From assembly GCA_001510135.1 (NCBI GenBank), contig LFER01000015.1, positions 1 through 64,000 of the forward strand: 64,000 nucleotides of DNA, read 5' to 3'. Both the position numbers and the translations under genes were made by a program. Within the stretch, counting starts at the first letter, position 1. Each line of letters begins with the position of its first letter. Below are positions 41,991 to 63,809 of the stretch, piece by piece. This DNA comes from Alphaproteobacteria bacterium casp-alpha6 (lineage in GTDB: Bacteria; Pseudomonadota; Alphaproteobacteria; Rhodobacterales; Rhodobacteraceae). Below the pieces are notes generated by a model. That model ran no database searches, was not told the DNA's origin, and saw only the letters and a list, made by a program, of their open reading frames with translations.

Positions 41991-42469
41991 GGAAGAAGCT
42001 GGATGTTTCCAAAGGCGGCGTCAGAATTCAAAAGATCGACCCGTTTGTTGGCGATCCGCAATTGCCCCTCGACATGTTTCAATTCATGCGTTGCCGTCAA
42101 TGCGAGCAGAAACTGGTCATCAAGGCGCGTTTCCACGTAGTGCATGGAGGTATTGGTGACATACCGCCCGGCCTCATGGTCCATCTCATCCACAAAGGGG
42201 CGTTGGATGACGTGGTGACATCGGCTTTTGGGTTTTTGGCTGAAGGTGCGCGCGCCGTTCAGCCGCTCCACCCTCAATTTCAGCATAAACATATCTTCGT
42301 ATAGGAGCGAAGTGACCAGATGCGGATCGCTTTGTTTATGGTCCAGCGGCATCCAGTAATGCCCGTCCGGAAGCCAAAGCGCGAGCCAATCGTCATAATG
42401 TCCTTCGTCCAGCAGTCGCGCCTCGGTGTAGATGAAATCAATCAGTTCTTCTTTGGTGACAGGGTTCAT
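41987..42469 (-). CDS. aromatic-ring-hydroxylating dioxygenase beta subunit
   Basis: 160 aa; LIDFIYTEARLLDEGHYDDWLALWLPDGHYWMPL. Confidence 0.9.
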   Translation of the reverse strand: MNPVTKEELIDFIYTEARLLDEGHYDDWLALWLPDGHYWMPLDHKQSDPHLVTSLLYEDMFMLKLRVERLNGARTFSQKPKSRCHHVIQRPFVDEMDHEAGRYVTNTSMHYVETRLDDQFLLALTATHELKHVEGQLRIANKRVDLLNSDAAFGNIQLLP

Positions 42470-43824
42470 TCTGCGGCCTCCGGCGTACCGATGGCGCAGT
42501 GCCTCATCGTGGCGGTCATGAATTTGCGCCAGGCGTCAAACTGGTTTCGCATCTGACGCTCTGTCGTGCCGTTTTCAACGGCTTCTTCGGAAAAATCCTC
42601 ACCGTCGACGGGGTAAAGCCGCTGCAGGTTCACCCATTCAAGCCCGTCCGACATCAATCCTTCTTGGGCACGTTCATACATTTCAAGATCATCATGTCCC
42701 ACGATAGAGGTCGGTGCATTGATCATCCGGTTATACATTGCTGTGCGCGCCAAAAGCTGGTCAGGTGCGTCCACAAGGCGGTAGATATAACTTTCCACCA
42801 GCGTTTTATCCGGACCAAGGGGGATAAAATTGCGCAGCTGCTGTATCGGGCCTTTGACCATGATAGAGGGAAAATAAATCGTGTTATGGCGGTTTTCGTC
42901 CAGAATCGCCTTGGCGCGGTCTTCGCCATAGGCGTCACACATCGCTTCAAAATATCCCGGGATTGCAGAATAATCGGAATGGATGGAATGGTGCACACCT
43001 GTGTGACCATGTCCGTTGGGCCATGTGCGAATGCCCATGTTTTCAAAAAATTCATAAGGCGACATGAAGGGCGCGATGATTTGCATCGCAGGCGGGCGGG
43101 GTTCCGGATTTCCCAGTTCTTCCCAGATTTTCACGGCCGTTCCGGCAGAGCTTTCATGGGCGACCATCGGATGACAGGTGTCGGTCTGGTTTTCGACCAG
43201 CATTTTCCAGTTGCATTTGTGCATATAGCGAAGCGGGGGGCCCGCGACCTCCAACCGGCCTGCAGGGGAGCGATCCACCATATTGTCAATCGAGGATAGG
43301 CTGTCGAGAAAGAAATCTTCAAAGCTGATGCCGTCTTCGGTCAGACGGGCGAAAATAAAACCGCGGTAGTTTTTCACCGCGCCAACCGGTTTCATCCCTT
43401 TGGCGTTGTCTGTATTTTCAAGCCCCGTGCCCTCATACCCTTTTTTCAACGGGATTGCCAAAAGACAGCCATCGGTTTTAAACGACCACGCGTGATAGGG
43501 GCAGCGGAAAAACTTTCCGGTGTTGCCTTCGCGGTCAATCGCGATTTTGGTGCCTTTATGGGGGCACCTGTTGTGAAGAACCTTGATCTCGCCATCGCTG
43601 TGGCGCACTTGAATTACGGGCTGATTACCGATCTGTGTGGTATAATAATCGCCTTTGTTGGGCGTCTGGCTGTCATGCCCTACAAAGACCCAAGTATTCG
43701 CAAAAAGGTGGCGCATTTCGAGGTCAAAGACCCTCTGACTGGTATAGACATCCCGATGCACCTGATGGCCCTCAATCATCGCATCAATATCTTCTGCACT
43801 TAGGGGATGATGCCGTTCAGACAT
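42466..43824 (-). CDS. aromatic ring-hydroxylating dioxygenase alpha subunit (Rieske)
   Basis: 452 aa; CPHKGTKIAIDREGNTGKFFRCPYHAW Rieske; mononuclear-Fe region DTCHPMVAH. Confidence 0.94.
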   Translation of the reverse strand: MSERHHPLSAEDIDAMIEGHQVHRDVYTSQRVFDLEMRHLFANTWVFVGHDSQTPNKGDYYTTQIGNQPVIQVRHSDGEIKVLHNRCPHKGTKIAIDREGNTGKFFRCPYHAWSFKTDGCLLAIPLKKGYEGTGLENTDNAKGMKPVGAVKNYRGFIFARLTEDGISFEDFFLDSLSSIDNMVDRSPAGRLEVAGPPLRYMHKCNWKMLVENQTDTCHPMVAHESSAGTAVKIWEELGNPEPRPPAMQIIAPFMSPYEFFENMGIRTWPNGHGHTGVHHSIHSDYSAIPGYFEAMCDAYGEDRAKAILDENRHNTIYFPSIMVKGPIQQLRNFIPLGPDKTLVESYIYRLVDAPDQLLARTAMYNRMINAPTSIVGHDDLEMYERAQEGLMSDGLEWVNLQRLYPVDGEDFSEEAVENGTTERQMRNQFDAWRKFMTATMRHCAIGTPEAAE

Positions 43825-43836
43825 GATTTTCCTCCG

Positions 43837-44781
43837 CTACAGATCCAGCACAAGGCGCGCCGATTTGGCCCGACTTACGCAGATTTGCATGACTTTGCCC
43901 GCTTGGCGGTCTGCCTCAGACAGCACAACATCGCGGTGATCAGGGACTCCGCTGATCACATCGGTCTGACAAATACCACAGTCACCACGTTGGCAGTCAT
44001 ATAGAATATCTTTGCCTTCTGTGCTCAGCACGTCAATGATCGATTGGCCTATGGGGATGGTGAACACTTCTCCGGTGCTGTGGATTTCCACTTCAAAGGG
44101 GGTATCTTCTGAACTGTCTTGAGGCGTTGAAAATAGCTCTACATGAATATTTTGGCTGCTATGTCCCGCAGCTTCTGCTGCGGTGCGCGCCGCCTCAATC
44201 ATGGCTTTGGGTCCACAGATATAAATCGCGCTTCCCGCTGGCTGATTTTGCATAAGGTCGGTCAAATCAAGGGGGATTTTGTCGTCAAAGTGGAAGGACA
44301 TCTGTGGTGCAAAAACCGCATCAAGTCTGTCTTTGAACGCCATGCGTTTTTCAGTGCGGGCGCTGTAGTGGAAACGAAAAGCGCGTTCCTCAAAGGCAAG
44401 CTGCGTTGCCATTGAAATCAGCGGTGTGACACCGATCCCTCCGGCGAGCAACAAGACTTCTGAGCGGTCTTTGATGAGTTCAAAATCGTTTTTGGGATGG
44501 CTGGCCTGCAAAATGGACCCGATTTCAAGCCGATGCATTGCCTTTGATCCGCCCGCTCCGTCGTCTTCACGCTGCACAGCGATTTGATAGGTACGGGGAT
44601 GCTTTTCTTCCAAAGCCCAATCAATGAGAGAGTAGGCACGCGCCCCAATCACATCCAGTTCAAAATCAATATGTGCTCCGGCACTATATGCTGGCAGGGC
44701 GTTGCCCGAAAAATTTTGGAATTCCAAAAGGCGCACCTGATCTGTTACGTCCTGCATTTCAATAAGCTGCAGATTAAGCAT
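43837..44781 (-). CDS. PDR/VanB family oxidoreductase (RHO reductase)
   Basis: 314 aa; FAD/NAD domains and C-terminal CQRGDCGICQTDVISGVPDHRD 2Fe-2S. Confidence 0.92.
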   Translation of the reverse strand: MLNLQLIEMQDVTDQVRLLEFQNFSGNALPAYSAGAHIDFELDVIGARAYSLIDWALEEKHPRTYQIAVQREDDGAGGSKAMHRLEIGSILQASHPKNDFELIKDRSEVLLLAGGIGVTPLISMATQLAFEERAFRFHYSARTEKRMAFKDRLDAVFAPQMSFHFDDKIPLDLTDLMQNQPAGSAIYICGPKAMIEAARTAAEAAGHSSQNIHVELFSTPQDSSEDTPFEVEIHSTGEVFTIPIGQSIIDVLSTEGKDILYDCQRGDCGICQTDVISGVPDHRDVVLSEADRQAGKVMQICVSRAKSARLVLDL

Positions 44782-44803: not shown

Positions 44804-44823
44804 TTATATGAATTTTCATATAA
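44804..44823. promoter_or_regulatory. putative MarR-family operator
   Basis: Perfect 9-2-9 inverted repeat TTATATGAA-TT-TTCATATAA between the reductase gene and the divergent marR. Confidence 0.7.
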
Positions 44824-44896: not shown

Positions 44897-45340
44897 ATGA
44901 CACAAGCAGATCAAACTTCGGAAGCGTTTGTATCTTCCTACCTTTTGTACCTGCTTGCGGCGTCAAGTGATGCGGCAAGCGCGCAGTTTCACAAGATTGT
45001 CCGAGACAAGGGTTTGCGGGTTCCTGAATGGCGGGTCATTGCCTGTCTTTACGATCAGGACGGGCTGATGACCACAAAACTGGCGGATTACGCATTGATG
45101 GAACAATCGCGGCTGACGCGAATCCTGGACCAGATGGATCAAAAGGGCTGGGTGGAACGGCGCATTGATCCAGAGGATCGCCGCCGCGTTCGAGTGCATC
45201 TGACAGATACGGGCAAAGGGCTGGCAAAGTCATTGGTTGAAGACGCAAAAATACACGAACAAAAATTGCTGAGCATTCTCAAAGACACGGATGCCGCGCG
45301 GCTCAAACCCGCGCTGCAGGCGCTCTTGGCGCATCTGTAG
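44897..45340 (+). CDS. MarR family transcriptional regulator
   Basis: LRVPEWRVIACLYDQDGLMTTKLADYALMEQSRLTRILDQMDQKGWVERRIDPEDRRRVRVHLTDTG. Confidence 0.94.
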   Translation: MTQADQTSEAFVSSYLLYLLAASSDAASAQFHKIVRDKGLRVPEWRVIACLYDQDGLMTTKLADYALMEQSRLTRILDQMDQKGWVERRIDPEDRRRVRVHLTDTGKGLAKSLVEDAKIHEQKLLSILKDTDAARLKPALQALLAHL

Positions 45341-45480: not shown

Positions 45481-46476
45481 TCACATTTCTGGGCTTAAGA
45501 TGATTTTTGGCGTGGCAACGACCCCTGAGCGAATGTCGGAAAAGGCTTTTTGCCCATATTTCAGGGGTCTTTGTTCCGTCCAATCCAGTTGTCCGAGCCG
45601 TCCGTCAAAAATCGCCTCTGCCGTGTCGCGAAAATCCTCAGCCGTATAGGTATAGGTTCCCATAAACGTGATTTCCTGAAGCGTCATACGCCGCACATCC
45701 AATCCCCCTGCGTTTGATCCAAGTCCGATATGGGCAATTACCCCACCGGAGCGTGCATATTCAGAAGCAAGTTTTCTGGTGGCTTCATACCCGACACCAT
45801 CCACCACCAGATCGAATTCTGTCTGTGGGGGGATGGTCTGTGGTGTTGTTAAGCGTTGGGCGCAATGGGTTGAGATATACGCGCGCCGCAAATCATTCGG
45901 CTCCACGATCAGCACGTCTTTGATCCCTTGTGCGTGACAACTAAGCGCAGCGCCAAGGCCAATTGCCCCCCCTCCGATCACCAAAGCGCGAATATCGCGG
46001 TCTTTTCTGTTCAAAACGGCTTTGGCTTTGCGCACTGCGTGCCAGCCGCAGGCAATCGGTTCTGCCAGTGCCGCAACACTTAGCGCGATATCATCTGGTA
46101 CGGTGACAAGATTGCGCTCCGGCATGGTGATATATTCAGCAAAGCCGCCGTCGCGGGGGGCCATGGAAATGATCTGACGCGTGGTGCAAAGGTTGTCTTG
46201 TCTGGCGATGCAAAAAGGACAGGTGCCGCAGGTCACGAGAGGATTGACTGTGACGCGTGTGCCATCGCGCGGACCGCCCGTGATGGTTCCGGCCACTTCG
46301 TGACCAAGGATCAAAGGGGCAGGGCGGCGTTCATCATGGCCAAGGAATGCGTGCATGTCAGATCCGCAAATCCCCACACTGTCCACTTTGACCAGAACCT
46401 CACCGTCTTTGGGTGTTGGGTCGGGAACCTCGCGATGGTCCAATGCCTCTGGTCCGATGTAAACAAGCGCCTTCAT
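45481..46476 (-). CDS. zinc-dependent medium-chain alcohol dehydrogenase
   Basis: 331 aa; VGICGSDMHAFLG; GHEVAGTI; CGTCPFCIARQDNLC. Confidence 0.92.
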   Translation of the reverse strand: MKALVYIGPEALDHREVPDPTPKDGEVLVKVDSVGICGSDMHAFLGHDERRPAPLILGHEVAGTITGGPRDGTRVTVNPLVTCGTCPFCIARQDNLCTTRQIISMAPRDGGFAEYITMPERNLVTVPDDIALSVAALAEPIACGWHAVRKAKAVLNRKDRDIRALVIGGGAIGLGAALSCHAQGIKDVLIVEPNDLRRAYISTHCAQRLTTPQTIPPQTEFDLVVDGVGYEATRKLASEYARSGGVIAHIGLGSNAGGLDVRRMTLQEITFMGTYTYTAEDFRDTAEAIFDGRLGQLDWTEQRPLKYGQKAFSDIRSGVVATPKIILSPEM

Positions 46477-46512
46477 GTCGGAAAATCCAATATCTGACGC
46501 ATGGGGACCAGC

Positions 46513-47829
46513 TCAAACATCGCTTGCCACCCCGACGAGGTCAAAGTTTTCATGTGGAAAATACTTGGCGAGGCGCACGTCAGCCGCACGCGCATGGCCT
46601 TCCATGCCTTCCAGTCGGGATATACGCGCGGTGGCAAGTGCCACGGGTTTTGATCCTTCACGGGTGGCGCGCTGCCATGTGACAATCTTCATATATTTAT
46701 GGACAGATAATCCCCCGGTGTAGGACGCGGCGCCGGACGTGGGGAGCACGTGGTTTGTGCCGGAGGCTTTGTCTCCGTAGGATACGGTGGTTTCTTCGCC
46801 CAAGAAAAGCGATCCATAACAGCTGAGTCGGTCAAGCCACCAGTCAAGATCGTCTGCCTGAACCGTCAGGTGTTCGGGCGCGTATTCGTCTGACGTCGCT
46901 GCCATGTCTTCGCGATTTTCGCAAAGAATGACTTCTGCGTAGTCTCGCCACGCGGCAGAGGCGTTGTTGCGGTTCAACTCGGGCAGATCATCAATCAGTT
47001 TGGGCACAAGGGCGAGAACTTCTTCTGCCAAAGCCCGATTATCTGTCACCAACCAGACGGGCGAATTATATCCATGCTCTGCCTGACTGACGAGGTCGGT
47101 GGCCACAACAAAAGGATCTGCCTGTTCATCGGCAAGGATCAGACTGTCGGTTGGACCGGCAATCATATCAATCCCGACGCGACCAAAAAGCATCCGTTTG
47201 GCTTCGGCGACAAATTGATTGCCCGGACCCACAAGGATATTTGCCTTTGGTAAACCAAACAGCCCGTAGGTCATCGATGCAACCCCCTGCACCCCGCCCA
47301 TGGCGAGGATTTTATCCGCGCCGCATATATGGGCGGCATAGATGATGGCTGGTGCAATCCCGACCCCTGCACGTGGCGGGGAACAGGCAATGATTTTGTT
47401 GCACCCCGCCACTTTGGCGGTGGTCACTGTCATAATTGCGCTTGCTATATGATTGTAGCGACCGCCGGGGATATAACATCCCGCCGTATCCACGGGGATG
47501 GCTTTCTGTCCGGCGATGAGACCGGGAACAACTTCGACTTCGAAATTTGCAACTGTCGCCTTTTGTGCTTCAGCAAAGCGACGCACATTTTCATGTGCAA
47601 ATTGGATATCGGCCTTGAGTTTATCCGGCACCAGCGCAATTGCAGCCTCTATATCCGCTTCAGAAAGCAAAATAGGCCCGTCATACTGATCAAACTTAGC
47701 GGAATATTCCAGTGCTTTTGCGTCCCCGCCGGTCTCTATATCATCCAAAATCGCGCGCACGATGTCTTTGGTTTCGCTGGCATCAGATTTTGATTTCAAA
47801 GTCGCTTTTTTCAAATATTCACGACGCAT
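46513..47829 (-). CDS. HisD-family dehydrogenase, sulfopropanediol 3-dehydrogenase (HpsN)-like
   Basis: 438 aa; YIPGGRYNHIASAIMT, GPGNQFVAEAKRMLFGRVGIDMIAGPTDS; TRAP/ADH context rather than his genes. Confidence 0.8.
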   Translation of the reverse strand: MRREYLKKATLKSKSDASETKDIVRAILDDIETGGDAKALEYSAKFDQYDGPILLSEADIEAAIALVPDKLKADIQFAHENVRRFAEAQKATVANFEVEVVPGLIAGQKAIPVDTAGCYIPGGRYNHIASAIMTVTTAKVAGCNKIIACSPPRAGVGIAPAIIYAAHICGADKILAMGGVQGVASMTYGLFGLPKANILVGPGNQFVAEAKRMLFGRVGIDMIAGPTDSLILADEQADPFVVATDLVSQAEHGYNSPVWLVTDNRALAEEVLALVPKLIDDLPELNRNNASAAWRDYAEVILCENREDMAATSDEYAPEHLTVQADDLDWWLDRLSCYGSLFLGEETTVSYGDKASGTNHVLPTSGAASYTGGLSVHKYMKIVTWQRATREGSKPVALATARISRLEGMEGHARAADVRLAKYFPHENFDLVGVASDV

Positions 47830-47898
47830 GTTTACTCCATTTACAGTTTGATCGACTCGTCGGGTTTCAAGAGAAATCTGTTTTCTACTGGATGCTTA

Positions 47899-50361
47899 TC
47901 ATCCCGACAAAAATTTTGGCAACCACAGAACAAGTTGCGGGAAGGCAAACAACAGCGCCAACCCAACAAGTTGGATTACCATGAATTGCATCATACCAAA
48001 GTAGATATCTTTGAGGTCCCAGCTTGGCACAACACCCTTGAGGAAATACGCCGAAAGGGCAACAGGCGGGCTGAGCCAAGCCGTTTGCAGGTTAACCGCC
48101 ACCAGAATACCAAACCACACGAGCATATCGTAGGTGCTGTCAAAATACGCCAAGTCCAGTGCAATCACGGTCGGAAGCAGGATGGGCACAACAATCAGCA
48201 CGATGGGCACCCATTCGAGAGGCCAACCCAAAAGGAAAATGAGGGCCATAATCAGGATAAGAACCACATAAGGGGACATATCAAGCGACAATAAGGCCTC
48301 TGTCATCATTTTTGGCGTGCCAAGGCTCGAAAATTCAGCACCGAAAAAATTGGATGCGGCAACAAGGAACATGATTAGCACGGTGATTTCCAGCGCTTTG
48401 ATCATGCTTTCAAAAAATCCGCCAAGCGTGAATTTGCGGTATGCCAGCGAAAGAAGGATCGCACCAAAAGCCCCCATAGCCGCAGCTTCGGCGGGGGTGG
48501 CAAAGCCTAAAAGAATTGAGCCAAGCGCAAAAGAGATCAGGATAGTAGGCGGCATAAGCCCCGCAAAAAATTCGTCCCAAACATAGGAGAAATAAAAATC
48601 TGATGCCGCCTCTTTGCGATAAATAGGGGCGCCAAGCAGCGCCAAGAGCACCACAAAGCCGCAAAAGACAAACGTCCAAAGGCTCAAGCCAGAGTTTGCC
48701 ACGCTGACGCAGACATGGAAAATCACGGTGAGCGGGACAAGAAGCCGCAAAATGTTCAGATTTCGATAGGCCAGATAAGTCAGCCCAAGTGCCGCGGCGA
48801 GGACAAAAAACCCGCCAAAGGGCAGATAGGTTCCGAAAATTCCGCTCAGGCCAAGGCCAAAAATCCGACAGAGGGTTAGGATCCCCAATGACACAAGAGC
48901 AACTTCGGCACCATAGAATTTAGAGGTTTCAGGTTGATCTTCTTCGGATAGGATCGGGCCAAGCTCCGGATTGATCCAGCAGCGCACAAGTGTGTAAATC
49001 AGGTACAAACTCGCCAAAAGTGCGCCCGGAATAAATGCGCCACGAAAAAGATCCAGCGTGGATACTTCCAAAACGGGGCCCATCACGATCAACATGATGG
49101 AAGGCGGGATCAAAATACCAAGCGTTCCGCCGGCGGTAATGGTACCGGCTGCCAATTGGACATTATATTTTGCGCGGTTCATCGTGGCGCCGGCCATGAT
49201 GCCCAAAAGTGTGACGGACGCACCAACGATACCTGTGGCGGCGGCAAAAATCGTCGAAACAATCAATACGGCAATATACAGAGAGCCGCGCACCCGTGCC
49301 ATGATCATCTGAATGGATGCAAAGAGGCGTTCCATCAACCCCGCCGTTTCCATAACAATGCCCATTAATACGAATAAAGGAACCGCCATGAGCTGATCAT
49401 TGAGCATTGTGGAATTGGTGTTGAGCGTGAAAAGCAGCGTTGTCAGCTTAAAATTCGCGCCCCAAATGCCAAAGATAAAGGCCAGAAAAATGAGCGTGAA
49501 AGAAATCGGAAAACCGATGAAAATCACGAACAACATGGCGGTCAGCATGATTAAACCGATGGTGGGTTTGGACAGGCTGGGGCGGGCCTTCATCAGATCG
49601 GTAAACCATTCTCCACCCGGAACAAGATCAGGGGTAAAAACCGCAAGTACCAGCCAAAGCAGAACGATAACATAGATTGGCAACGCTCTGACAAAAAGCC
49701 GTTCGTGGTCCTTTCCCATTTTGTGGAGGGCACGGAAAATTTCGGGTATTCCCTGAATAAGCAGTAAAAATCCTCCGACTGGCATGGCCGTGCGGGCAGG
49801 CCAGAGAAGCGGACCCCAAGCGCTGTCGATTTGCATGGTTTCCGAGGTAGAATAGGCAAGCCACCAAAATTTTGCAGAGACGATGGTGAAAAAGATCATG
49901 GAGGGGATGAAAAACAACAGATAGAGGGTGGCATCCACCGTAGCTTGGGTTTTGTCAGACCAGTTTCGATAGAGAAAATCTGCGCGAATATGCACACCGC
50001 GCATCAATCCATATCCTGCGGCCCCCATGAAAAGCACGCCGCTGATCATGCGGCTTGTGTCATAGACCCAAAGCGTCGGTCCAAGTCCAAGCGCTTTGCC
50101 GAGCCATCCCATCTCTGCATCAATGAGCATGGCGTCGATATTTCGGGACAGGACTTCGTAGACCACCACTGCAATCAGCGGCACCATGAGAAGGGCAAAA
50201 AACTGACCGGCGCGATAATTGACCACATCGATAAAGGCAGTGATCGGACGTTGCCAAGGCGTCATGTCTTCGGGTGTTTCCCCCGGTTTTTCGGCCCGAC
50301 GTTCGGCGATCAGCTCATCCGCGATGTCAAGCTCTTGGGGATTTGGCGTATCGGCGGCCAT
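47899..50361 (-). CDS. fused TRAP transporter small + large permease (DctQM)
   Basis: 820 aa; N-terminal DctQ-like TMs then DctM (LMGIVMETAGLMERLF; GTLGILIPPSIMLIV). Confidence 0.9.
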   Translation of the reverse strand: MAADTPNPQELDIADELIAERRAEKPGETPEDMTPWQRPITAFIDVVNYRAGQFFALLMVPLIAVVVYEVLSRNIDAMLIDAEMGWLGKALGLGPTLWVYDTSRMISGVLFMGAAGYGLMRGVHIRADFLYRNWSDKTQATVDATLYLLFFIPSMIFFTIVSAKFWWLAYSTSETMQIDSAWGPLLWPARTAMPVGGFLLLIQGIPEIFRALHKMGKDHERLFVRALPIYVIVLLWLVLAVFTPDLVPGGEWFTDLMKARPSLSKPTIGLIMLTAMLFVIFIGFPISFTLIFLAFIFGIWGANFKLTTLLFTLNTNSTMLNDQLMAVPLFVLMGIVMETAGLMERLFASIQMIMARVRGSLYIAVLIVSTIFAAATGIVGASVTLLGIMAGATMNRAKYNVQLAAGTITAGGTLGILIPPSIMLIVMGPVLEVSTLDLFRGAFIPGALLASLYLIYTLVRCWINPELGPILSEEDQPETSKFYGAEVALVSLGILTLCRIFGLGLSGIFGTYLPFGGFFVLAAALGLTYLAYRNLNILRLLVPLTVIFHVCVSVANSGLSLWTFVFCGFVVLLALLGAPIYRKEAASDFYFSYVWDEFFAGLMPPTILISFALGSILLGFATPAEAAAMGAFGAILLSLAYRKFTLGGFFESMIKALEITVLIMFLVAASNFFGAEFSSLGTPKMMTEALLSLDMSPYVVLILIMALIFLLGWPLEWVPIVLIVVPILLPTVIALDLAYFDSTYDMLVWFGILVAVNLQTAWLSPPVALSAYFLKGVVPSWDLKDIYFGMMQFMVIQLVGLALLFAFPQLVLWLPKFLSG

Positions 50362-50441
50362 CCCAGTCCTCCCATTAAATTCTGCCCTTCTAGGCGTCTT
50401 TTTGGAAAAAGGCGATCTGTTTTGAGATCATGCGCCTTTGT

Positions 50442-50477
50442 CGAAAAAGACGTACGGGACCAAAAAGGCCCCGTACG
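50442..50477 (-). terminator. stem-loop between TRAP binding-protein gene and permease gene
   Basis: CGTACGGGaCC-AAAAA-GGcCCCGTACG; on the minus strand followed by TCTTTTTC. Confidence 0.65.
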
Positions 50478-50486
50478 AGGAGTGGA

Positions 50487-51596
50487 TTATTTTTTGAGCG
50501 TGTCGGCGTGTGCCTTACCCAATCCAGCGTTTGACGCCTGTGCACCGGCCCAGAAGGGAACAGCGACGTCTGCAAAGTCTTTTTGGGACTGCCAGACTTC
50601 TGCAAAAAACGCGTTTTCATCTGCGGCGGCCTGAAGCGCTTTCTTGGCGGCGGCCATATATTCGGTGAAATAATCTGCAGGCGTATCTTCGAGGATAACA
50701 CCGTGGTTGTCTGTGAGATCTTTCAACGCTTTGCCGTTTTCAATTATCCGGTAGGACATTGATTTTGACAAAGATGCGTTGGCCGCGACTTCGAGCGCTT
50801 TCTTTTCCAGATCCGTGAGGCTGTCATAAAAATCGCCGTTTACATACATATCGGCGTTCACAACCACTTGGTGAAGACCCTGGAGGTAGTAGTGTTTCAG
50901 CACTTTCTGAAAACCAAAGACAGAGTCTGGTTTAGGGCAGCACCATTCGGCGGCGTCGATTGTGCCTTTTTCAAGCGCAGGAAGGATATCCCCGCCACCC
51001 ATGGCAACGGCTGGAACACCGATGTCTGCATAGGCCGCACCGACCATACCGGGAGGTGCACGGAAGCGCATTTTACGGAAATCATCCATGGTTTTGTTAG
51101 GTTCTGGGAACCAACCCAGAGCTTCTGGACCTACAGGCTGCAGCATAAAGCCTTTGACGTTCACACCCATTTCATCCCACAGGCGGTCATAAAGCTCTTT
51201 CCCGCCGCCATATTGGAACCATGACAAGAACGCGAGCGCATCAAGACCAACACCGGCCCCAGCCACAGGCGCGCCAAAGAGGTTTGCGGCAACATGTTTA
51301 CCACCCCAGTAATGGGTCCAGCCAAATCCACCCTCGACAAGACCTGCATCCACGGCATCAATGATGTCCCTTGGGCCAACGACAGCTCCGGCAGGCAGCA
51401 CCTCAATGACCAAAGATCCATTTGTCAGCGCTGCAACATCCGCGCCAAAATCTTTGAGCATCACCACCTCATCAGCGGTGTTGGGCAAAACAGATTGGAT
51501 GCGCAATACCTTTTCCGCAAATGCGGCCGAGGCTGTGATCTAAAGACCCGCCGCGGTGAGAGCAGCGCCTTTCAGTAGCTTATTCAGTTTCAACAA
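50487..51596 (-). pseudogene. TRAP transporter substrate-binding protein (DctP), in-frame amber in signal peptide
   Basis: ORF 50487-51506 is mature DctP; upstream in-frame reading from TTG 51594: (M)LKLNKLLKGAALTAAGL*ITASAAFAEKVLRIQSV, stop at 51540-51542. Confidence 0.75.
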
Positions 51597-51720
51597 AGTT
51601 CATACTCCCTTTTATTGCCTTCTTAAGGTGTTCCACCGGCCATTCGAAGGCTTTATGGTGGTGGATTTCTGGGCTTCATGGGTTGCCCGAAACAGGTTTT
51701 CTCTTTTCCAGCGGATCGCG

Positions 51721-53334
51721 TCAGCCAGCGTTTTGCAAATCCTCCAGAATCATATCAGATGCTTTTTCGCCAATCATGATGGAAGGCGCATTGGTATTTC
51801 CAGAAGTGATGGTCGGCATGATTGATGCATCTGCCACACGCAATCCTTTGATACCGTGTACCCGCAGGCGGGCATCCACAACGCTCATCGGGTCGCTTCC
51901 CATTTTGCAGGTTCCCGTGGGGTGATAAATCGTCACGGATGTGTTGCGCGCCCATTCCAAGGTACCCGCCTCATCATCATGGGCAATTTCGCGTCCTGGC
52001 GCGTATTCTTCGGTTATGTGGGATTTCAACGGGTCAAGAGATGCGATTTTGCGCGCAATCTGGATGCCTTTGACAATGGTAGTTTGATCGGTCGTGGTGG
52101 AAAGATAATTCGGATGAATTGCGGGGTGAATTCGGCTGTCTGCGGATTTGAGTTTCAGGCATCCCGTGCTTTCAGGACGCAATTGCAGGACCGAGGCGGT
52201 AAACGCCGAAAATGGATGCGGGCCCTCCACTGCATTATTCGCGCTGAAGGGTTGGATATGAAATTGAATATCGGGGGTTTCAAGGTCAGGGTGGGTTTTC
52301 AAAAACCCAGTTCCCAGACTGGCAGCCATGGTCATGGGGCCGGTGCGTTTGAACGCATATTCAAGGCCCATCATGGCCCTTCTCGCCCAGCTTTTGATTT
52401 CCGTGTTGATGGTGCTGAGGTTTGTTTTGAAAATTGGGCGTGCCTGAAGATGATCCTGAAGGTTTTGTCCCACACCAGAAAGATCGCGTTCCACTGGTAT
52501 TCCCCAACTTGCCAGTTCCTGCCCCGGACCGATGCCCGAAACCATCAGAATATGTGGTGAACCGATTGCCCCCGCGGAAAGCACAACTTCGCGTTCCACG
52601 TCCAATGATATTTCCTGACCTTTGGATCTGGCCAATACCTGCACAACACGGCCCTCGCGCAGGACAAGTTTTTCGACCTGTGTGTCGGTGAGGACATGCA
52701 GATTTCTGCGATCCCGCGCGGGTTTGAGATAGGCCTTGGCCGAACTGCACCGTTGCCCCTGATGCAGGGTCAATTGAAAATATCCAACGCCCTCTTGGGT
52801 CTCGCCGTTATAATCTTCGTTCTGGTGATATCCTGCAGCGACAGCTGAATTTATCCAATAATCGACAATATCGCGTTTAGCGGCTGTGGGCGACACAGAC
52901 AGCGGCCCCTGCGCACCACGAAATGCATCGTTTGCGCCTTTGCCCCCATGCCAGGTTTCAAGGCGTTTAAAGACGGGCAAAACATCTTCCCATGCCCAGC
53001 CGATATTGCCAAGTTGACGCCAGTGATCGAAATCCTGCGGCTGACCGCGCACAAAAAGCAATCCGTTGATGGAACTTGACCCGCCAAGCACCCGACCACG
53101 GGGCCAGCGAATGGTGCGACCGTTCAACCCGTCATCGGGATCGGTCACATATTGCCAGTCTGATTTCGGATTCCCCATGGTTTTAAAATATCCCACCGGA
53201 ATATGGATCCATGGGTTGGTGTCTTTGGGGCCTGCTTCGAGTAAGGCAACACGATATTTACCGTTCTCGCTGAGACGCGAGGCGACAGCACATCCAGCTG
53301 ATCCAGCACCTATAACTACAAAATCAAACGTCAT
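51721..53334 (-). CDS. GMC family oxidoreductase (choline dehydrogenase-like)
   Basis: 537 aa; FVVIGAGSAGCAVASRLSE; RGRVLGGSSSINGLLFVRG; IYHPTGTCKMG. Confidence 0.94.
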   Translation of the reverse strand: MTFDFVVIGAGSAGCAVASRLSENGKYRVALLEAGPKDTNPWIHIPVGYFKTMGNPKSDWQYVTDPDDGLNGRTIRWPRGRVLGGSSSINGLLFVRGQPQDFDHWRQLGNIGWAWEDVLPVFKRLETWHGGKGANDAFRGAQGPLSVSPTAAKRDIVDYWINSAVAAGYHQNEDYNGETQEGVGYFQLTLHQGQRCSSAKAYLKPARDRRNLHVLTDTQVEKLVLREGRVVQVLARSKGQEISLDVEREVVLSAGAIGSPHILMVSGIGPGQELASWGIPVERDLSGVGQNLQDHLQARPIFKTNLSTINTEIKSWARRAMMGLEYAFKRTGPMTMAASLGTGFLKTHPDLETPDIQFHIQPFSANNAVEGPHPFSAFTASVLQLRPESTGCLKLKSADSRIHPAIHPNYLSTTTDQTTIVKGIQIARKIASLDPLKSHITEEYAPGREIAHDDEAGTLEWARNTSVTIYHPTGTCKMGSDPMSVVDARLRVHGIKGLRVADASIMPTITSGNTNAPSIMIGEKASDMILEDLQNAG

Positions 53335-53431
53335 TTTGTCAAAATTTTCAATTAATGAGATTTTTAGTCTCGTTTTTGCGTAAAAAATAGCCTAAGAGCT
53401 AAAGAAGGGTAAAAGCAAGAGGAAATTGAAA

Positions 53432-54190
53432 ATGTCTGAAAATTCTCGAATTGCCACGAATTTACGGACGCTCTTGCTTCTTGAGGTCTTTGCAAATTCT
53501 GGAAAGGCGCTTTCAGCCAAAGAGGTGCACGCGCATATTGATTTGCCTTATCAGACAATCCACCGGCTTTTGGTCGCATTGGAAGGCGAAGGGTTTCTTA
53601 TGCGGGATGCAAATGAGAAAAAATTCCGTGCGACGCGGCGGCTTCGCTCTATCGCCTCCGGCCTATTGAACATGTCGCATGTTCATATGGCACGCCATCA
53701 GATTTTGACGGATGTCGCGTCCAAGACCAGAGAAACGGTCAATTATGTTGTCCCGCAGGACACTGGTATGCATTATCTTGATCGTGTTGAAACAGACTGG
53801 GCATTTCGCGTGCAATTGCCACGGGGATCAAACGTGCCGTTTCATTGTACCGCAAGCGGTAAGATTTTTATGTCCAGTCTGAAAAAATCTGTTCGCACAG
53901 GTTTTGTGGACGCATTGCGCCTGACGCGTGAAACTGGAAATACCATTACAGAAAAAGATCATCTTCTAGAAGAACTGGCTTTGACAAAAAAACGGGGCTT
54001 TGCACTGGATAACGAAGAGTTCATGGAAGGGATGGTTGCCATCGCTGTGCCGGTGCATGATCCGCAGAACCGTTTTGTTGCCGCACTGGCGACCCATGGG
54101 CCGAAAAGTAGGATACCTTTAGAACGGCTGTTGGAATACCGGGAAATACTTTCCCAGGGGGCGAGCCAAATTGCAAAAACAGTCTTCTAA
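53432..54190 (+). CDS. IclR family transcriptional regulator
   Basis: LLLLEVFANSGKALSAKEVHAHIDLPYQTIHRLLVALEGEGFL; C-terminal IclR effector domain. Confidence 0.93.
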   Translation: MSENSRIATNLRTLLLLEVFANSGKALSAKEVHAHIDLPYQTIHRLLVALEGEGFLMRDANEKKFRATRRLRSIASGLLNMSHVHMARHQILTDVASKTRETVNYVVPQDTGMHYLDRVETDWAFRVQLPRGSNVPFHCTASGKIFMSSLKKSVRTGFVDALRLTRETGNTITEKDHLLEELALTKKRGFALDNEEFMEGMVAIAVPVHDPQNRFVAALATHGPKSRIPLERLLEYREILSQGASQIAKTVF

Positions 54191-54625: not shown

Positions 54626-56176
54626 TTAAGCCGCCGGTTCAGGGGTGTTTGTAAAGGATCGGACAGTCTTTATCGCCCCATCCAGTTCTTGTCCCGCCTC
54701 ATCCTTGAGCGCAGCCGCGCGAAGGCGCGATATCCAGTCCGACGCGTCTTCTCTGCCGTGCAGTATTTCCGCTGAATCGAGAACTTTGGCAAATTTGGAG
54801 TGACCGCGAGCATGGGTGTCGGAATACCCTTTAACCAACCGCTGACAGGCCAAAATTTCCACGGCCAATGCGTAATCTTCCTTCACATATCCTGCGGCAG
54901 TGCCCAAAAGTTTTGACAGGTGCGCTTGCTCCTCTTGATGGCGATACAGCGCGCGGCGGTAGGGTTTTAAAATCCCCAGGAAGCGCAACAAGAGGTATCC
55001 GCGCAGACGGTCGGTTCGAATGCGCCGCCCGCGATTGACCAGCCGGTCAAGGCGGGCAAAGGCTTTGGGTCTGGCAAAAAACCAAGCGCCCAGTCGGGCG
55101 GGCAGGGTGGCGCAGATTTCTTCCCCGCGGGGATGAAAATATTCGGTAACTTCTGCGATTTCATCTTGGGAAAGCCCCTGTTCCTTGCGCAGCCGAGTGT
55201 TTCGACTGGCGCGCGTTTTAAGGTCGGCGACGCGGATAATATCATCATAGCACATCGCATTGGCGATATATTTTGCGGCCGTCTGGGTAAGTTTGAATTC
55301 ATAGTGTTCATCATCCTTGGCCTGCCAAGCAAAAAGATGATCAAGATATTCCGCCCCATAGGCGATATCCTGATAGTCCACCACTTTTCGAAGTCCGGCT
55401 CGTGCAATGTCGCGGGCAGGGGGGGCGATGGCATTCACACGTTTTGACAGATCTTCCCATGCCGCGATCAATGGGGCCGGGCCTGTGACAGAGGCTATCC
55501 CTTTCTTTGGCGATGCGGGGGGAGAGACTGTTTGGGTTTCTTCATAGTTCAGCGCCGCGCGAAAGGCTGCGAGGCTTTGATCCACCCCTCGCCCTGACGC
55601 TCGGATCACCTCTTCATAAAGGCTGGGATCAAAGGGTAAGGTTCTGCTTTTGGCTAATGCACCAAAAAGGCTTGAGGAAATGACACTTTTGGCCTGCAGG
55701 GCGATACTGTCCATATCAAAACAGACGCTGCGCAGCGCCGATTTTTGAATATCCTGTGCAAGAATATCCACATCGGATCGCCCGTCTCCGGGCACCATTT
55801 TTTCCGAAACTGCAAGAATGCGATGCGTTGAGGCAATCAGCGTGGTGCGATCAGGCGTTACAAAACCGCGCAAAACCGCGCGTCCCGCTTCGACCAGTTC
55901 GGCGGCAATCATAATATCCACATCGCCCGGTGCGGGGCTTTGGGCAAAAACGGGCCTGCGGTCGGATTTAGGGGCCATTTCGATGTAATACACAGTCGCC
56001 CCCGTACGTTGGGCAACCCCCGCAACGGAGGTGGTTTGCACATCATAGCCGCCTTTGGCCGCCAAATCCGCGGTCCAATTGGTCAAAACACCCCCCCCCT
56101 GTCCGCCCACGGCGAGGATGGCGATCTTGATCACATCTGAGAGGGTTGGATCAGGTGATGCTTGGTTTTGGTTCAT
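54626..56176 (-). CDS. iorB: indolepyruvate oxidoreductase subunit beta family protein with DUF6537-type C-terminus
   Basis: MNQNQASPDPTLSDVIKIAILAVGGQGGGVLTNWTADLAAKGGYDVQTTSVAGVAQRTGATVYYIEM. Confidence 0.88.
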   Translation of the reverse strand: MNQNQASPDPTLSDVIKIAILAVGGQGGGVLTNWTADLAAKGGYDVQTTSVAGVAQRTGATVYYIEMAPKSDRRPVFAQSPAPGDVDIMIAAELVEAGRAVLRGFVTPDRTTLIASTHRILAVSEKMVPGDGRSDVDILAQDIQKSALRSVCFDMDSIALQAKSVISSSLFGALAKSRTLPFDPSLYEEVIRASGRGVDQSLAAFRAALNYEETQTVSPPASPKKGIASVTGPAPLIAAWEDLSKRVNAIAPPARDIARAGLRKVVDYQDIAYGAEYLDHLFAWQAKDDEHYEFKLTQTAAKYIANAMCYDDIIRVADLKTRASRNTRLRKEQGLSQDEIAEVTEYFHPRGEEICATLPARLGAWFFARPKAFARLDRLVNRGRRIRTDRLRGYLLLRFLGILKPYRRALYRHQEEQAHLSKLLGTAAGYVKEDYALAVEILACQRLVKGYSDTHARGHSKFAKVLDSAEILHGREDASDWISRLRAAALKDEAGQELDGAIKTVRSFTNTPEPAA

Positions 56177-58338
56177 GCGTCTGATCCTGAAAACACCAAT
56201 CGCCGCTTGTCCTGACGATGTTGCATCCATGTGATGATGCTTTGGCGCAGCTGATGTTTTATTCGGTCCCAACGCGTAGGGTTTGAAACGACCTCTGCCT
56301 GATAAAACGATGGGCAAAGCACGGCCGCATCGGCAACTTCGCCACAATTGCCACAGCCGACACAATTTTCGTCGATATGAGCCACCGGATCATCGCGCAG
56401 CGGATCATCAAGCTGCTTGAGCGACAAAGATGGGCATCCCGACAGCCGGATACAGGCGTGATCGCCTGTACAAATATCTTCGTCCACGCCAAACCGGGTG
56501 CGCGTGATCCGACGGCCCTCTGCCACCGCTTTGGCGCGCAGAGGTTTTTCCCGCCTTTGGCGGTTTAACATACATTCAGAAGAGGCGATGATCACTTTGG
56601 GGCCGGTTTCGGGGGTGGTCAGCGCCTCTTTGAGAGTGGCCTGAACCTTGCCGACATCGTAGGTGTGGTCAATTTGGCGGACCCATTTGACCCCGATCCC
56701 CTCGATGGCCTGTTTGATCGGATGCTGGGTGGATTTTGTCGTATTCTCTGCACGAGATGACAGGATATCCTGTCCCCCTGTCGCCGCGGAATAATAATTA
56801 TCCACGATCACAATCACCCCGTCATTGTCATTAAAAACGGCGTTTCCCACCGAAGAGGTCAGTCCATTGTGCCAGAACCCCCCGTCGCCGATGAATGAAA
56901 TGGACCGGCGATTGGCTGTTTTGTCGTTAAAGGCCGCTGCAGAGGCGGCCCCAAGTCCATATCCCATCGTTGTTGCCCCGATATCAAAGGGAGCATTGAT
57001 GGAAAAAAGGTGACATCCGATGTCCCCTGCGATGTGATGTTGGCCCAGTTCCTGTTCAACAAGCTTTGTTGCCGCAAAAATGGGCCGTTCTGGGCAGCCG
57101 ACGCAGAAACTTGGGGGGCGGTTGGGAACCTGCGTTACGAGACGCGGCGGAGGTTGCTGAGCTGGCGCGTTGGGTGCCAGCGCTTGGTCCGGTAAAATTT
57201 CCGGTGCGCTGTCCTTGAGAAAGCTTCTGATGCCGTCATGCATCACCATCCCCGTCATTTCTCCAGCGGTCGGAAAAGGGTCTTTACCGCGCAATCGCGC
57301 AGGCACGCCGGCTTTGTGCAGAATTGCGCGAAGTTCTTGTTCGATGTAGTCGGGATATCCTTCTTCGATGACGAGAATATCGGTTTTGTCTTTAGCAAAT
57401 TCCAGAAATTCATCATCAATGAGTGGATAGGTCACGTTCAAGACATAAAGGGGGATATCTACATCGCCATAAAGGGAGCTCAGGCCCAAACGCTGTAGCG
57501 CACGGATTACTGTGTTATAAAGCCCGCCCTGACAGACAATCCCGATCCGTGACGCTTTGGGATTTGCCGCCTGAAAGACTTCGTTCAGCTTTTGCGTTTT
57601 GATAAACTCTATGGCGGCCGGGCGCCGCTTTGTCACCTTTTCCTGTTCATGCAAAAAAGAGGCAGGCGGCAAAACGATCCGGTTGATGTCGCGTTTCGGG
57701 GCTTCCAGCGCATCCTTGACGGTCATCTCTGGGCGGCGATTGTCGCGGGCTTCAAAGGTGCCGAGCATATGACAGGATTTGATGCGCAGCTGGAGCATGA
57801 CCGGCGTGTTCGACGCCTCTGATAAAGCAAAGGCATCGCCCACAGATTTTACAATCGAGGGCAGGTTTGGACGCGGATCGAGCAACCAAATCTGGCTTTT
57901 CATTGCGAATGCATGGCTGCGTTCCTGCATGATGGAAGAGCCTTCGCCATAATCCTCCCCAACAATTACGATGGCCCCTCCGGTCACGCCGCCAGAAGAC
58001 AGGTTTGCCAAAGCATCAGAGGCTACATTTGTCCCGACGGTGGATTTGAAGGTCACAGCCCCGCGAATGGGATAGTGGACGGAGGCGGCCAAAGTCGCAG
58101 CGGCGGTGGCCTCGGACGCGCTGGCTTCAAAATGGACGCCAAGGTCGGAAAGAATATCCTGCGCATCGGCCAAGACATCCATCAAATGGCTGATTGGGGA
58201 ACCCTGATATCCTGCAACATAGCCCACACCATTTTCCAAAAGAGCCTTTGTAATTGCCAGAATCCCTTCGCCACGAAAGGTTTCGCCTGCGCCGATTTTG
58301 AGATGTTCGACTTCTTTTACAAAGGACCTTTCCGCCAT
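56173..58338 (-). CDS. iorA: indolepyruvate ferredoxin oxidoreductase subunit alpha
   Basis: 721 aa; CVGCPERPIF; TPP motif GDGGFWHNGLTSSVGNAVFNDNDGVIVIVDN; two 4Fe-4S motifs. Confidence 0.92.
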   Translation of the reverse strand: MAERSFVKEVEHLKIGAGETFRGEGILAITKALLENGVGYVAGYQGSPISHLMDVLADAQDILSDLGVHFEASASEATAAATLAASVHYPIRGAVTFKSTVGTNVASDALANLSSGGVTGGAIVIVGEDYGEGSSIMQERSHAFAMKSQIWLLDPRPNLPSIVKSVGDAFALSEASNTPVMLQLRIKSCHMLGTFEARDNRRPEMTVKDALEAPKRDINRIVLPPASFLHEQEKVTKRRPAAIEFIKTQKLNEVFQAANPKASRIGIVCQGGLYNTVIRALQRLGLSSLYGDVDIPLYVLNVTYPLIDDEFLEFAKDKTDILVIEEGYPDYIEQELRAILHKAGVPARLRGKDPFPTAGEMTGMVMHDGIRSFLKDSAPEILPDQALAPNAPAQQPPPRLVTQVPNRPPSFCVGCPERPIFAATKLVEQELGQHHIAGDIGCHLFSINAPFDIGATTMGYGLGAASAAAFNDKTANRRSISFIGDGGFWHNGLTSSVGNAVFNDNDGVIVIVDNYYSAATGGQDILSSRAENTTKSTQHPIKQAIEGIGVKWVRQIDHTYDVGKVQATLKEALTTPETGPKVIIASSECMLNRQRREKPLRAKAVAEGRRITRTRFGVDEDICTGDHACIRLSGCPSLSLKQLDDPLRDDPVAHIDENCVGCGNCGEVADAAVLCPSFYQAEVVSNPTRWDRIKHQLRQSIITWMQHRQDKRRLVFSGSDA

Positions 58339-58390: not shown

Positions 58391-58410
58391 AAATATGAAA
58401 TTTCATCTTT
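58391..58410. promoter_or_regulatory. putative operator related to the MarR site at 44804-44823
   Basis: AAATATGAAATTTCATCTTT; contains 12-bp palindrome ATGAAATTTCAT and shares ATATGAAnTTTCAT with TTATATGAATTTTCATATAA. Confidence 0.55.
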
Positions 58411-58491
58411 ATGCGCAGTATACCCCATCTTTTGTGTCTTGCAATGTTTGGATCGGGCTTCAGAGCGTCAGACGGAAAAGGGCGTTTCCGG

Positions 58492-61684: not shown

Positions 61685-62119
61685 TTAAAATCCGAGCACT
61701 TCTTGAGTTGTACACCATTCATCCAAAATCTCTTTCACATCTTCAGGCCAAGAAATGGATGTATGTTTGTCAAGGTCACTCGCGGCAAGGACCTGAGAGC
61801 TTGACCATCTGACCTCTGAGCCGCAGCTGATCCGGTGCCGCAGGGTAACAGAGGATCGACCAACCCGCACAACGCCAAGTTCAAAAGACAATGTTTCTCC
61901 GAAAAAAGAGGGTTTGGAAAAGTCGCAGGACAGATGAACAGTCGGAGTGCCCCAGCGATCGTTCCAAATAATTTTATGCCAAGGGTAGCCAAGATAGGCC
62001 CAGAATTCTTCGTTCACTCCATTCAGGATATCCAAATAGGAGGGGAAATAGGCTGTACCCGAAATATCGCAGTCCCCAAAGCGTAAGGCGCGGTCTGTTC
62101 TGAAAATTTTTGCTGACAT
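61685..62119 (-). CDS. acyl-CoA thioesterase (4-hydroxybenzoyl-CoA thioesterase-like hotdog)
   Basis: 144 aa; RTDRALRFGDCDISGTAYFPSYLDILNGVNEEFW. Confidence 0.85.
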   Translation of the reverse strand: MSAKIFRTDRALRFGDCDISGTAYFPSYLDILNGVNEEFWAYLGYPWHKIIWNDRWGTPTVHLSCDFSKPSFFGETLSFELGVVRVGRSSVTLRHRISCGSEVRWSSSQVLAASDLDKHTSISWPEDVKEILDEWCTTQEVLGF

Positions 62120-62236
62120 CTATCCCCTTTCTGGCGGCACATCTCACATGGCAACTGGATGCACAGAATTTAGAACCTCGCCCATTTGGGTAGGATCGTC
62201 AATTGTTAAGCCGCATAAAAGATAACTTGTGAACGT

Positions 62237-62632
62237 TCATCCGAGATGCGCAGTGGCTTCGATTTCGACTTTGGCGCGGTCTTCGACAAGGCCGGCAACC
62301 ACAACCAAAGACATGGCCGGAAAATGCCGGCCAAAGACATCGCGGTAGGCGGCCCCAACTTCTTTTTGGGCGGCAAGATATTCTGCCTTGCTGGTGACGA
62401 ACCAAGTCAGGCGGGTGACATCCTCCACCTGACCGCCCGCGGTTTCAACAATTTGACGAATATTGCTGAGGGCTTGGCGCATCTGGTCGATGAAATCATC
62501 CGAAACGAATTCTTTGTTTCCGTCCCAACCGATCTGGCCGCCAATATGAAGAATACCGTCTTTGGTCAGGATGCCATTGGCATATCCTTTTGCAGGAAGC
62601 CAACTTTCAGGATGAATGGTTTTATGGGTCAT
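62237..62632 (-). CDS. RidA family protein
   Basis: 131 aa from ATG at 62632; HIGGQIGWDGNKEFVSDDFIDQMRQALSNIRQIVETAGGQVEDVTRLTWFVT. Confidence 0.9.
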   Translation of the reverse strand: MTHKTIHPESWLPAKGYANGILTKDGILHIGGQIGWDGNKEFVSDDFIDQMRQALSNIRQIVETAGGQVEDVTRLTWFVTSKAEYLAAQKEVGAAYRDVFGRHFPAMSLVVVAGLVEDRAKVEIEATAHLG

Positions 62633-62648
62633 TTCAAACCCCTTTCTT

Positions 62649-63809
62649 TTAAGAGTGCTGAGAGGCGTTTTGAAGAGTTCCAAGCGCTTGACGGGCAATG
62701 ATGACCTTTTGCACGTCACTTGCGCCCTCATAAATACGAAGCGCACGGATATCGCGGTAAAGCTGTTCGACCGGCATTCCGCTGCGCACCCCGTCGCCGC
62801 CAAACAGCTGAACGGCGGTATCGATGACCTTCTGGGCCTGCTCTGTGGAAAACAGTTTTGCCATAGCGGCTTCTTTGGTGATCCGCGCTGCGCCGCTGTC
62901 TTTGGCCCATGCGGCGCGGTAAACCAGCAAAGCGGCCGCATCAATATCAAGTGCCATATCCGCGATATGCCCTTGGACCATCTGAAGATCAAAAAGGGGC
63001 GCTCCCTGCACATGGCGTTCGCTCACGCGGGTGAGTGCCTCGTCAAAGGCCCGCCGCGCAAAGCCCAGTGCGGCCGCGGCAACAGTGGGGCGAAAGACAT
63101 CCAAGACGGACATCGCGATCTTAAATCCTTGCCCGGGGGCGCCAATCATTGCAGAGCTTGGCACGCGGCAGTCTTCAAACCGCAATGTGGCCAAAGGGTG
63201 GGGGGCGATGGTCTGAAGCCGTTCTTTGATGGTAAATCCCGAAAGATCCGGTGTGATTACAAAGGCCGAAAGACCGCGCGCGCCTGCGGCTTCGCCTGTG
63301 CGGGCAAACAGCGTGTAGATGTCGGCAATCCCGCCGTTGGAAATCCATGTTTTTTCGCCGTTCAGGATGTAGTCATCTCCATCCGGTATTGCCGTCATGG
63401 TGGAATTGGCCACATCCGACCCTGATCCAGGCTCTGTTAGGGCAAAGGCGGAAATAGCCTCACCCGAGCGAGTTTTGGGAAGCCAGCGGTTTTTCTGTGC
63501 TTGGCTGCCAAAAAGCGTCAAAGCCCCTGTTCCAAGTCCCTGCATGGCAAAGCTGAAATCGGCAAGTCCATCATGGCGGGCCAGAATATCGCGAGCAAGA
63601 CATAGCTTTCGGACATCAAATTTCCCTGTGTCGCTCGAGGTTGGGCCAAGAACGCCGCTTTGCCCCAAGGTCTGCACCAGATTTTGGCAGGCTGCGTCAA
63701 CGTCACTGTGATCGACCCTTAAACCTTTGGCGACTTCTTCAACCTTTTCTGACCATTCCCTGTGGTGATCATCAAAAAAGGGCCAGTTGAGATAGGTTCG
63801 ATCAGACAT
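62649..63809 (-). CDS. acyl-CoA dehydrogenase
   Basis: 386 aa; FALTEPGSGSDVANSTMTAI; QLFGGDGVRSGMPVEQLYRDIRALRIYEGASDVQKVIIAR. Confidence 0.94.
   Translation of the reverse strand: MSDRTYLNWPFFDDHHREWSEKVEEVAKGLRVDHSDVDAACQNLVQTLGQSGVLGPTSSDTGKFDVRKLCLARDILARHDGLADFSFAMQGLGTGALTLFGSQAQKNRWLPKTRSGEAISAFALTEPGSGSDVANSTMTAIPDGDDYILNGEKTWISNGGIADIYTLFARTGEAAGARGLSAFVITPDLSGFTIKERLQTIAPHPLATLRFEDCRVPSSAMIGAPGQGFKIAMSVLDVFRPTVAAAALGFARRAFDEALTRVSERHVQGAPLFDLQMVQGHIADMALDIDAAALLVYRAAWAKDSGAARITKEAAMAKLFSTEQAQKVIDTAVQLFGGDGVRSGMPVEQLYRDIRALRIYEGASDVQKVIIARQALGTLQNASQHS

Follow-up and report, generated by a model that had tools for sequence, protein, structure and literature searches.

A predicted second IadR-type operator at iorAB in a split iad locus of an alphaproteobacterium

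Described iad systems and the split locus

IadR is a MarR-family repressor of auxin degradation, a description that covers both the protein of Variovorax paradoxus and the Ruegeria pomeroyi protein of PDB entry 3CDH, whose Kd values for IAA are 0.41 µM and about 0.24 µM, respectively (PMC9613470). In Variovorax, IadR represses the locus and has its binding site between iadR and iadA, a site that it releases with IAA; homologues of IorA (COG4231) and IorB are iadA and iadB, which are exclusive markers of iad-like loci (PMC9613470). In Bradyrhizobium japonicum, iorB and iotA (bll3410 and bll3411), homologues of iorAB, are upregulated 7.6- and 30.7-fold with IAA (PMC3788728), and in Bradyrhizobium-type loci (L149 and L175) we find iorAB beside or inside the iad genes.

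We analyzed a 64,000-nucleotide stretch of DNA (the window) from a marine bacterium of the Rhodobacteraceae type. When compared by regulator protein and gene layout, the window resembles the iad locus of V. paradoxus CL14 in that a MarR repressor with the same IAA contacts is encoded divergently from iad genes, a (here predicted) operator lies between iadR and the first iad operon, and iadA and iadB belong to the locus. Whereas a single locus with a single operator is described in CL14, the iadAB genes of the window (iorAB) stand apart and have a predicted operator of their own. The genes concerned are as follows.

44897-45340, plus strand: iadR, orthologue of the IAA-sensing MarR-family repressor (PDB matches, contact residues, tree)
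43837-44781, minus strand: iadC, Rieske oxygenase reductase (domain match)
42466-43824, minus strand: iadD, Rieske oxygenase large subunit (domain match; gene order kept in relatives)
41987-42469, minus strand: iadE, Rieske oxygenase small subunit (gene order in relatives)
40368-41990, minus strand: acyl-CoA ligase of the iad core, IadF-like by order (domain match and order in relatives)
39196-40368, minus strand: thiolase-like protein of the iad core (domain match and order in relatives)
37943-39199, minus strand: ChsH2-type OB-fold domain fused to a short-chain dehydrogenase, iad core (domain match)
37158-37946, minus strand: iadI, isatin hydrolase A orthologue (5NNB, 488 bits)
36436-37161, minus strand: short-chain dehydrogenase, final gene of the iad core (domain match and order in relatives)
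45481-54187: cluster that looks unrelated, with a (R)-DHPS dehydrogenase orthologue, ADH, fused TRAP, GMC oxidoreductase, and IclR
54626-56179, minus strand: iorB, iadB homologue, beta subunit with POR and DUF6537 (PRK08312, 659.5 bits; cut-off 348)
56173-58338, minus strand: iorA, iadA homologue, thiamine-diphosphate 2-oxoacid:ferredoxin oxidoreductase alpha subunit, 721 aa
58492-61556, minus strand: TRAP transporter dctM-dctQ-dctP, upstream of iorA
61685-63809, minus strand: thioesterase, RidA, and acyl-CoA dehydrogenase, part of a putative 2-aminobenzoyl-CoA pathway cluster
Contig C15 63.9-68.1 kb (L106:1-4199), just beyond the window end: ECH, MarR, SDR, and a 765-aa oxygenase/reductase, continuing the 61685-63809 cluster

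Genes for IadC, IadD, and IadE, the isatin hydrolase-like IadI, the iadA/iadB homologues, and IadR thus all lie within 22 kb, interrupted by the cluster at 45481-54187. The HisD-like gene of that cluster encodes an orthologue of (R)-2,3-dihydroxypropane-1-sulfonate (DHPS) dehydrogenase (8WWE, 747 bits), and the cluster probably serves DHPS catabolism and appears unrelated to auxin. It splits iadAB from iadCDE, which are kept together in other bacteria. A first, sequence-only reading of this DNA had placed an unrelated IclR/TRAP cluster between two operons about 13.6 kb apart, and both the distance between the two operators (13,587 bp) and the DHPS-type genes agree with it. The genes from the thioesterase to the oxygenase, on the same strand as iorAB, probably form an aminobenzoyl-CoA degradation operon.

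IadR and two predicted operators

The MarR protein of the window has 3CDH as its nearest PDB entry and closest solved relative (177 bits), and the structures 7KFO (75 bits) and 7KKI of Variovorax IadR (MarR_73) are also among its best PDB matches. All five IAA contacts (Tyr15, Ser28, His32, Trp45, and Arg46) are kept at the same positions, and the recognition helix is nearly identical to that of the Ruegeria protein (MEQSRMTRIVDQMD versus MEQSRLTRILDQMD). In a tree in which IadR, a paralogue that we call MarR2 (encoded near iorA in relatives), and abm-linked MarR proteins form three groups, the window protein falls into the IadR group (support 93/88). By these sequence criteria it is an IadR orthologue.

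An IadR relative is present in 23 of the 298 genomes of the family that we searched, the window's own included. The iadC promoters of other genera carry ATATGAAATTTCATAT or close variants, and in 20 of 21 loci the sequence before iadC agrees with the palindrome ATATGAAwwTTCATAT at no fewer than 10 of 14 positions. Relatives also carry IadR-type sites 5′ of TRAP transporter genes (L071:7750, L089:14145, L091:3977, and L073:692), and some of these lie far from iadR, on a different contig in G093, about 53 kb away in G149, and about 10 kb away in G280; such sites indicate that multi-operon IadR regulons exist, and the TRAP systems behind them are candidate IAA uptake systems. Because relatives carry a site there we inspected the TRAP genes of the window, and no IadR operator was seen before them (dctP start 61556). 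Regulons of separate IadR operons are not unusual, and it is iorA as a member that is the special feature here. The predicted control elements of the window are these.

44804-44823, no strand: predicted IadR operator in the iadR/iadC divergent promoter, TTATATGAATTTTCATATAA
44803-44831, minus strand: iadC promoter, -35 TTGCCC at 44831-44826, 17 nt, -10 TATAAT at 44808-44803 (consensus match only)
58391-58410, core 58393-58408, no strand: predicted IadR-type operator of iorA, AAATATGAAATTTCATCTTT (core match and matrix score)
58417-58444, minus strand: sigma-70-like promoter of iorA, -35 TTGCAA at 58444-58439, 16 nt, -10 TATACT at 58422-58417 (consensus match only)

The operator at 44804-44823 is a perfect 20-bp palindrome, and 18 of the 20 positions of that at 58391-58410 follow palindromic symmetry; as the sequence-only reading had pointed out, the two are identical at 14 of 20 positions and have ATATGAANTTTCAT in common. 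dctM and iorA are separated by 153 bp, and the iorA operator lies in this gap, 53-72 bp 5′ of the iorA start codon (ATG at 58338, minus strand). That reading had also proposed a genome-wide scan for the core. Our pattern scans, which covered the genome (an assembly of 2.98 Mb that is 86% complete), returned exactly two exact matches to ATATGAANTTTCAT, at 44806 and 58393, i.e. at the iadC and iorA promoters, and the reversed ATATGAANTTTCAT, used as a control, had no match in the 2.98 Mb even with one mismatch permitted. In a matrix scan covering the 64-kb window, with a matrix built exclusively from the iadC operators of other genera and with the window left out, the two sites ranked first and second, at 25.6 bits (44.8-kb site) and 22.5 bits (iorA site). 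Neither 30.6 Mb of simulated sequence nor 100,000 intergenic stretches simulated with the local composition yielded a match of at least 22.5 bits.

Short palindromes are common in AT-rich promoters, and of the two operators that of iorA is weaker, one of its arms reading AGAT instead of ATAT. It might be a functionless AT-rich palindrome in an AT-rich gap, and a comparable near-consensus palindrome is indeed found at C8:28260 (20.6 bits), apparently inside a folK-like frame, the single further place that matches the looser palindrome ATATGAANNTTCATAT with one mismatch. The simulations, the presence of exactly two exact matches in 3 Mb, the location of the iorA site at the expected transcription start, and the fact that iorA is a known partner in the same pathway all speak against chance, which we consider very improbable and have rejected on the simulation, the genome scan, and the position. 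Six one-mismatch places elsewhere in the genome were considered, together with their neighboring genes, as further members of the regulon; they score 12.5-20.6 bits, several of them in coding frames. The one that precedes a gene, for an enoyl-CoA hydratase on contig C42, scores only 15.0 bits.

Both operators overlap sigma-70-like promoters. The operator at 44804-44823 fills the spacer of the iadC promoter and overlaps its -10 element, and the iorA operator starts about 7 nt downstream of the -10 element, over the expected transcription start. The suggestion of the sequence-only reading that one MarR regulator co-controls both operons is supported by these promoter overlaps together with the common operator and the IadR orthologue. 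With the same repressor site at both gene groups, one auxin sensor probably switches on both, and we consider it likely from the sequence that IadR co-controls the iad core and iorAB through the two operators. When no IAA is present, we infer, an IadR dimer would sit on the iadC promoter, over spacer and -10 element, and another would cover the region of the iorA promoter where transcription starts, so that both promoters would be blocked; binding of IAA would free IadR, and the iad core (iadCDE, ligase, thiolase, short-chain dehydrogenases, and isatin hydrolase) and iorAB would be turned on together. No terminator was found in the dctM-iorA gap, and transcripts that run on from the TRAP operon could thus circumvent the iorA operator.

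MarR2 and the operators of iorA in relatives

MarR2 is encoded no more than 1.5 kb from iorA in 79 of 114 distinct iorA loci. It forms its own clade, has N28, mostly R32, and mostly M45 at the IAA contact positions, and carries EQSTLSR in the recognition helix where IadR has EQSRLTR. The palindromes near MarR2 genes and near iorA in relatives read ATATGCAwwTGCATAT, with inner arms GCA/TGC as against GAA/TTC in the iorA site of the window.

The frequency of MarR2 beside iorA in relatives raises the possibility that another MarR protein, either MarR2 or the MarR encoded at 64609-65088 of contig C15, has its operator in the iorA palindrome, and that the likeness of this palindrome to the 44.8-kb site is one of MarR-operator family resemblance. 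Consistent with this possibility, the ATAT...ATAT frame is common to MarR operators in the family, iorA is preceded on its own strand, at a distance of about 6 kb, by a MarR gene, and the assembly is incomplete. However, the inner arms of the iorA site are GAA/TTC and not GCA/TGC, and the site scores 22.5 bits with the IadR matrix versus 9.9 bits with the MarR2 matrix, a separation that is partly by construction since the sites for both matrices were chosen by palindrome similarity. In addition, a search of this assembly did not find MarR2, the top match of a MarR2 query being IadR at 29% identity, although with the assembly 86% complete MarR2 could be absent from the assembly only; and the 64.6-kb MarR, as placed through its orthologues, falls in a distant clade. 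We therefore regard another MarR protein as an unlikely owner of the site, and MarR2 as its binder was rejected on operator class and absence from the assembly.

The failure to find MarR2, taken together with the IadR-type operator at iorA, suggests that IadR probably took over iorAB. In most relatives iorAB would be under a MarR paralogue of its own, with the other operator, and here the IadR operator would stand in its place; judged by sequence, the iorA site is probably a derived state, IadR having taken iorAB over after loss of MarR2. None of 111 other iorA upstream regions contains a comparably strong IadR-type site (best 16.9 bits), so the iorA site of the window is not backed by conservation. 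The gene iorA was found in none of six other genomes of the genus. A Hasllibacter MAG (L129/L192) has the same TRAP-iorAB order as the window, and no operator is present in its GC-rich TRAP-iorAB gap.

Two further arrangements were observed among the relatives. Loci L088, L113, and L190 contain a recurrent module of isatin hydrolase B, a 520-aa FAD oxidoreductase, MarR2, iorA, and iorB. The isatin hydrolase B/MarR2/iorAB module often occurs without iad core genes and is possibly a stand-alone route from isatin (or dioxindole) to aminobenzoyl-CoA. Bradyrhizobium differs from the window in both regulator and operator: the iorA promoters of L175, L178, and L189 contain a different palindrome, around TTTACATGTAAA or close variants, which suggests another operator code in that lineage.

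The identity and likely substrate of IorAB

Like the classical indolepyruvate ferredoxin oxidoreductase (IOR), IorAB consists of a thiamine-diphosphate alpha subunit and a POR-type beta subunit. Unlike the classical enzyme, it scores far below both curated cut-offs (IorA 287 bits against 650.9 for the alpha-subunit model TIGR03336; 41.5 bits against 206 for TIGR03334), its beta subunit carries DUF6537, and its genomic partners point to isatinate. IorB passes PRK08312 (indolepyruvate oxidoreductase subunit beta) at 659.5 versus 348 bits, a subfamily model that is silent on substrate.

The partners are those of the iad pathway. IadI of the window matches isatin hydrolase 5NNB at 488 bits and kynurenine formamidase at 26 bits, making it an isatin hydrolase orthologue, and the cyclase gene that adjoins iorA in relatives encodes an orthologue of isatin hydrolase B (529 bits to 4J0N). 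All 61 isatin-hydrolase genomes among the 298 have iorA (p = 8e-52, phylogeny being accounted for solely through the sampling of about one genome per genus), and an aminobenzoyl-CoA-type oxygenase is found in 62 of 73 iorA genomes. Among the 65 genomes with close iorA homologues, isatin hydrolase (some of whose matches are C-terminal parts of larger fusions) occurs in 61, and so does the 765-aa FAD-monooxygenase/OYE fusion; where only a divergent iorA is present, the counts are 0 of 8 for isatin hydrolase and 1 of 8 for the aminobenzoyl-CoA-type oxygenase. The protein encoded at 65.8-68.1 kb of C15 is such a fusion of an FAD monooxygenase to an OYE-type reductase (765 aa), which matches the NCBI salicylyl-CoA 5-hydroxylase/oxidoreductase model at 1291 bits (cut-off 1078) and which, from its architecture, we take to fit a 2-aminobenzoyl-CoA monooxygenase/reductase.

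One isatin hydrolase B homologue, encoded elsewhere in the genome of the window on contig C66 (L216:4516-6525), is the C-terminal part of a 669-aa fusion whose N-terminal part resembles another enzyme domain, and neither MarR2 nor iorA is encoded beside it. A frame of the same 669-aa type lies directly 5′ of iorA in G202 and G228.

The label of indolepyruvate oxidation, which the sequence-only reading had attached to iorAB, is made doubtful by the TIGR03336 score (287 versus 651 bits), by the homology to iadA/iadB, and by the isatin hydrolase and oxygenase partners. By the same evidence we are dealing with one auxin pathway that is split and not with two indole pathways, so that of the two-operon indole regulon proposed in that reading the shared MarR operator stands and the pair of pathways does not. 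Indolepyruvate is nevertheless the classical substrate of IOR, the family is named for it and IorAB matches TIGR03336 and PRK08312, and a common operator would also be expected if IorAB oxidized tryptophan-derived indolepyruvate to indoleacetyl-CoA and IadR co-controlled this feeder route with IAA degradation. Given that IorA is far under the curated IOR cut-off, and that across the 298 genomes the distribution of iorA follows that of isatin hydrolase and of the aminobenzoyl-CoA-type oxygenase, next to whose genes it sits, we think of this feeder route as possible and rather doubtful.

Isatinate (2-aminophenylglyoxylate) is more likely than indolepyruvate to be the substrate of IorAB. As isatinate is an aryl 2-oxoacid, a 2-oxoacid:ferredoxin oxidoreductase could make 2-aminobenzoyl-CoA from it, and we infer that this is the conversion carried out by IorAB, which would explain both the genome partners and the co-regulation. 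The phenylglyoxylate:acceptor oxidoreductase of anaerobic phenylalanine degraders converts an aryl 2-oxoacid and CoA to an aroyl-CoA and CO2; this is the same reaction type as the one proposed here and serves as a chemical precedent only. The likely biochemical reason for placing iorAB under IadR would then be that IorAB acts downstream of isatin hydrolase, with isatinate being oxidatively decarboxylated to 2-aminobenzoyl-CoA and this product feeding the neighboring oxygenase/beta-oxidation cluster. A literature search found no assignment of IorAB to isatinate. In Variovorax, the iadC-K2 region without iadAB suffices to make anthranilate, and thus IadAB is not essential for reaching that product; a compound of formula C8H7NO3, the formula of isatinate, accumulates when the iadC-K2 region is overexpressed (PMC12633357). 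The combined reading, in which IadAB/IorAB is an isatinate:ferredoxin oxidoreductase and its operon moved from MarR2 to IadR through a change of inner bases from GCA/TGC to GAA/TTC, is one for which we see about even chances.

The regulon is of a known type (iad/IadR), and what is new is a split locus with a second IadR-type operator at iorA. In an alphaproteobacterium from a marine lineage, an auxin-degradation pathway that is split in two is thereby tied to one auxin sensor through a predicted and easily tested operator code, and two paralogous MarR repressors emerge whose DNA codes can be told apart; one of the two repressors appears to have captured a target of the other. A specific substrate is also proposed here for an oxidoreductase that is widely misnamed. 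Our literature search found no gene assigned to the step between isatinate and anthranilate/aminobenzoyl-CoA; if the hypothesis is true, IadAB/IorAB would provide this step and so connect isatin hydrolase with the aminobenzoyl-CoA ring-attack pathway.
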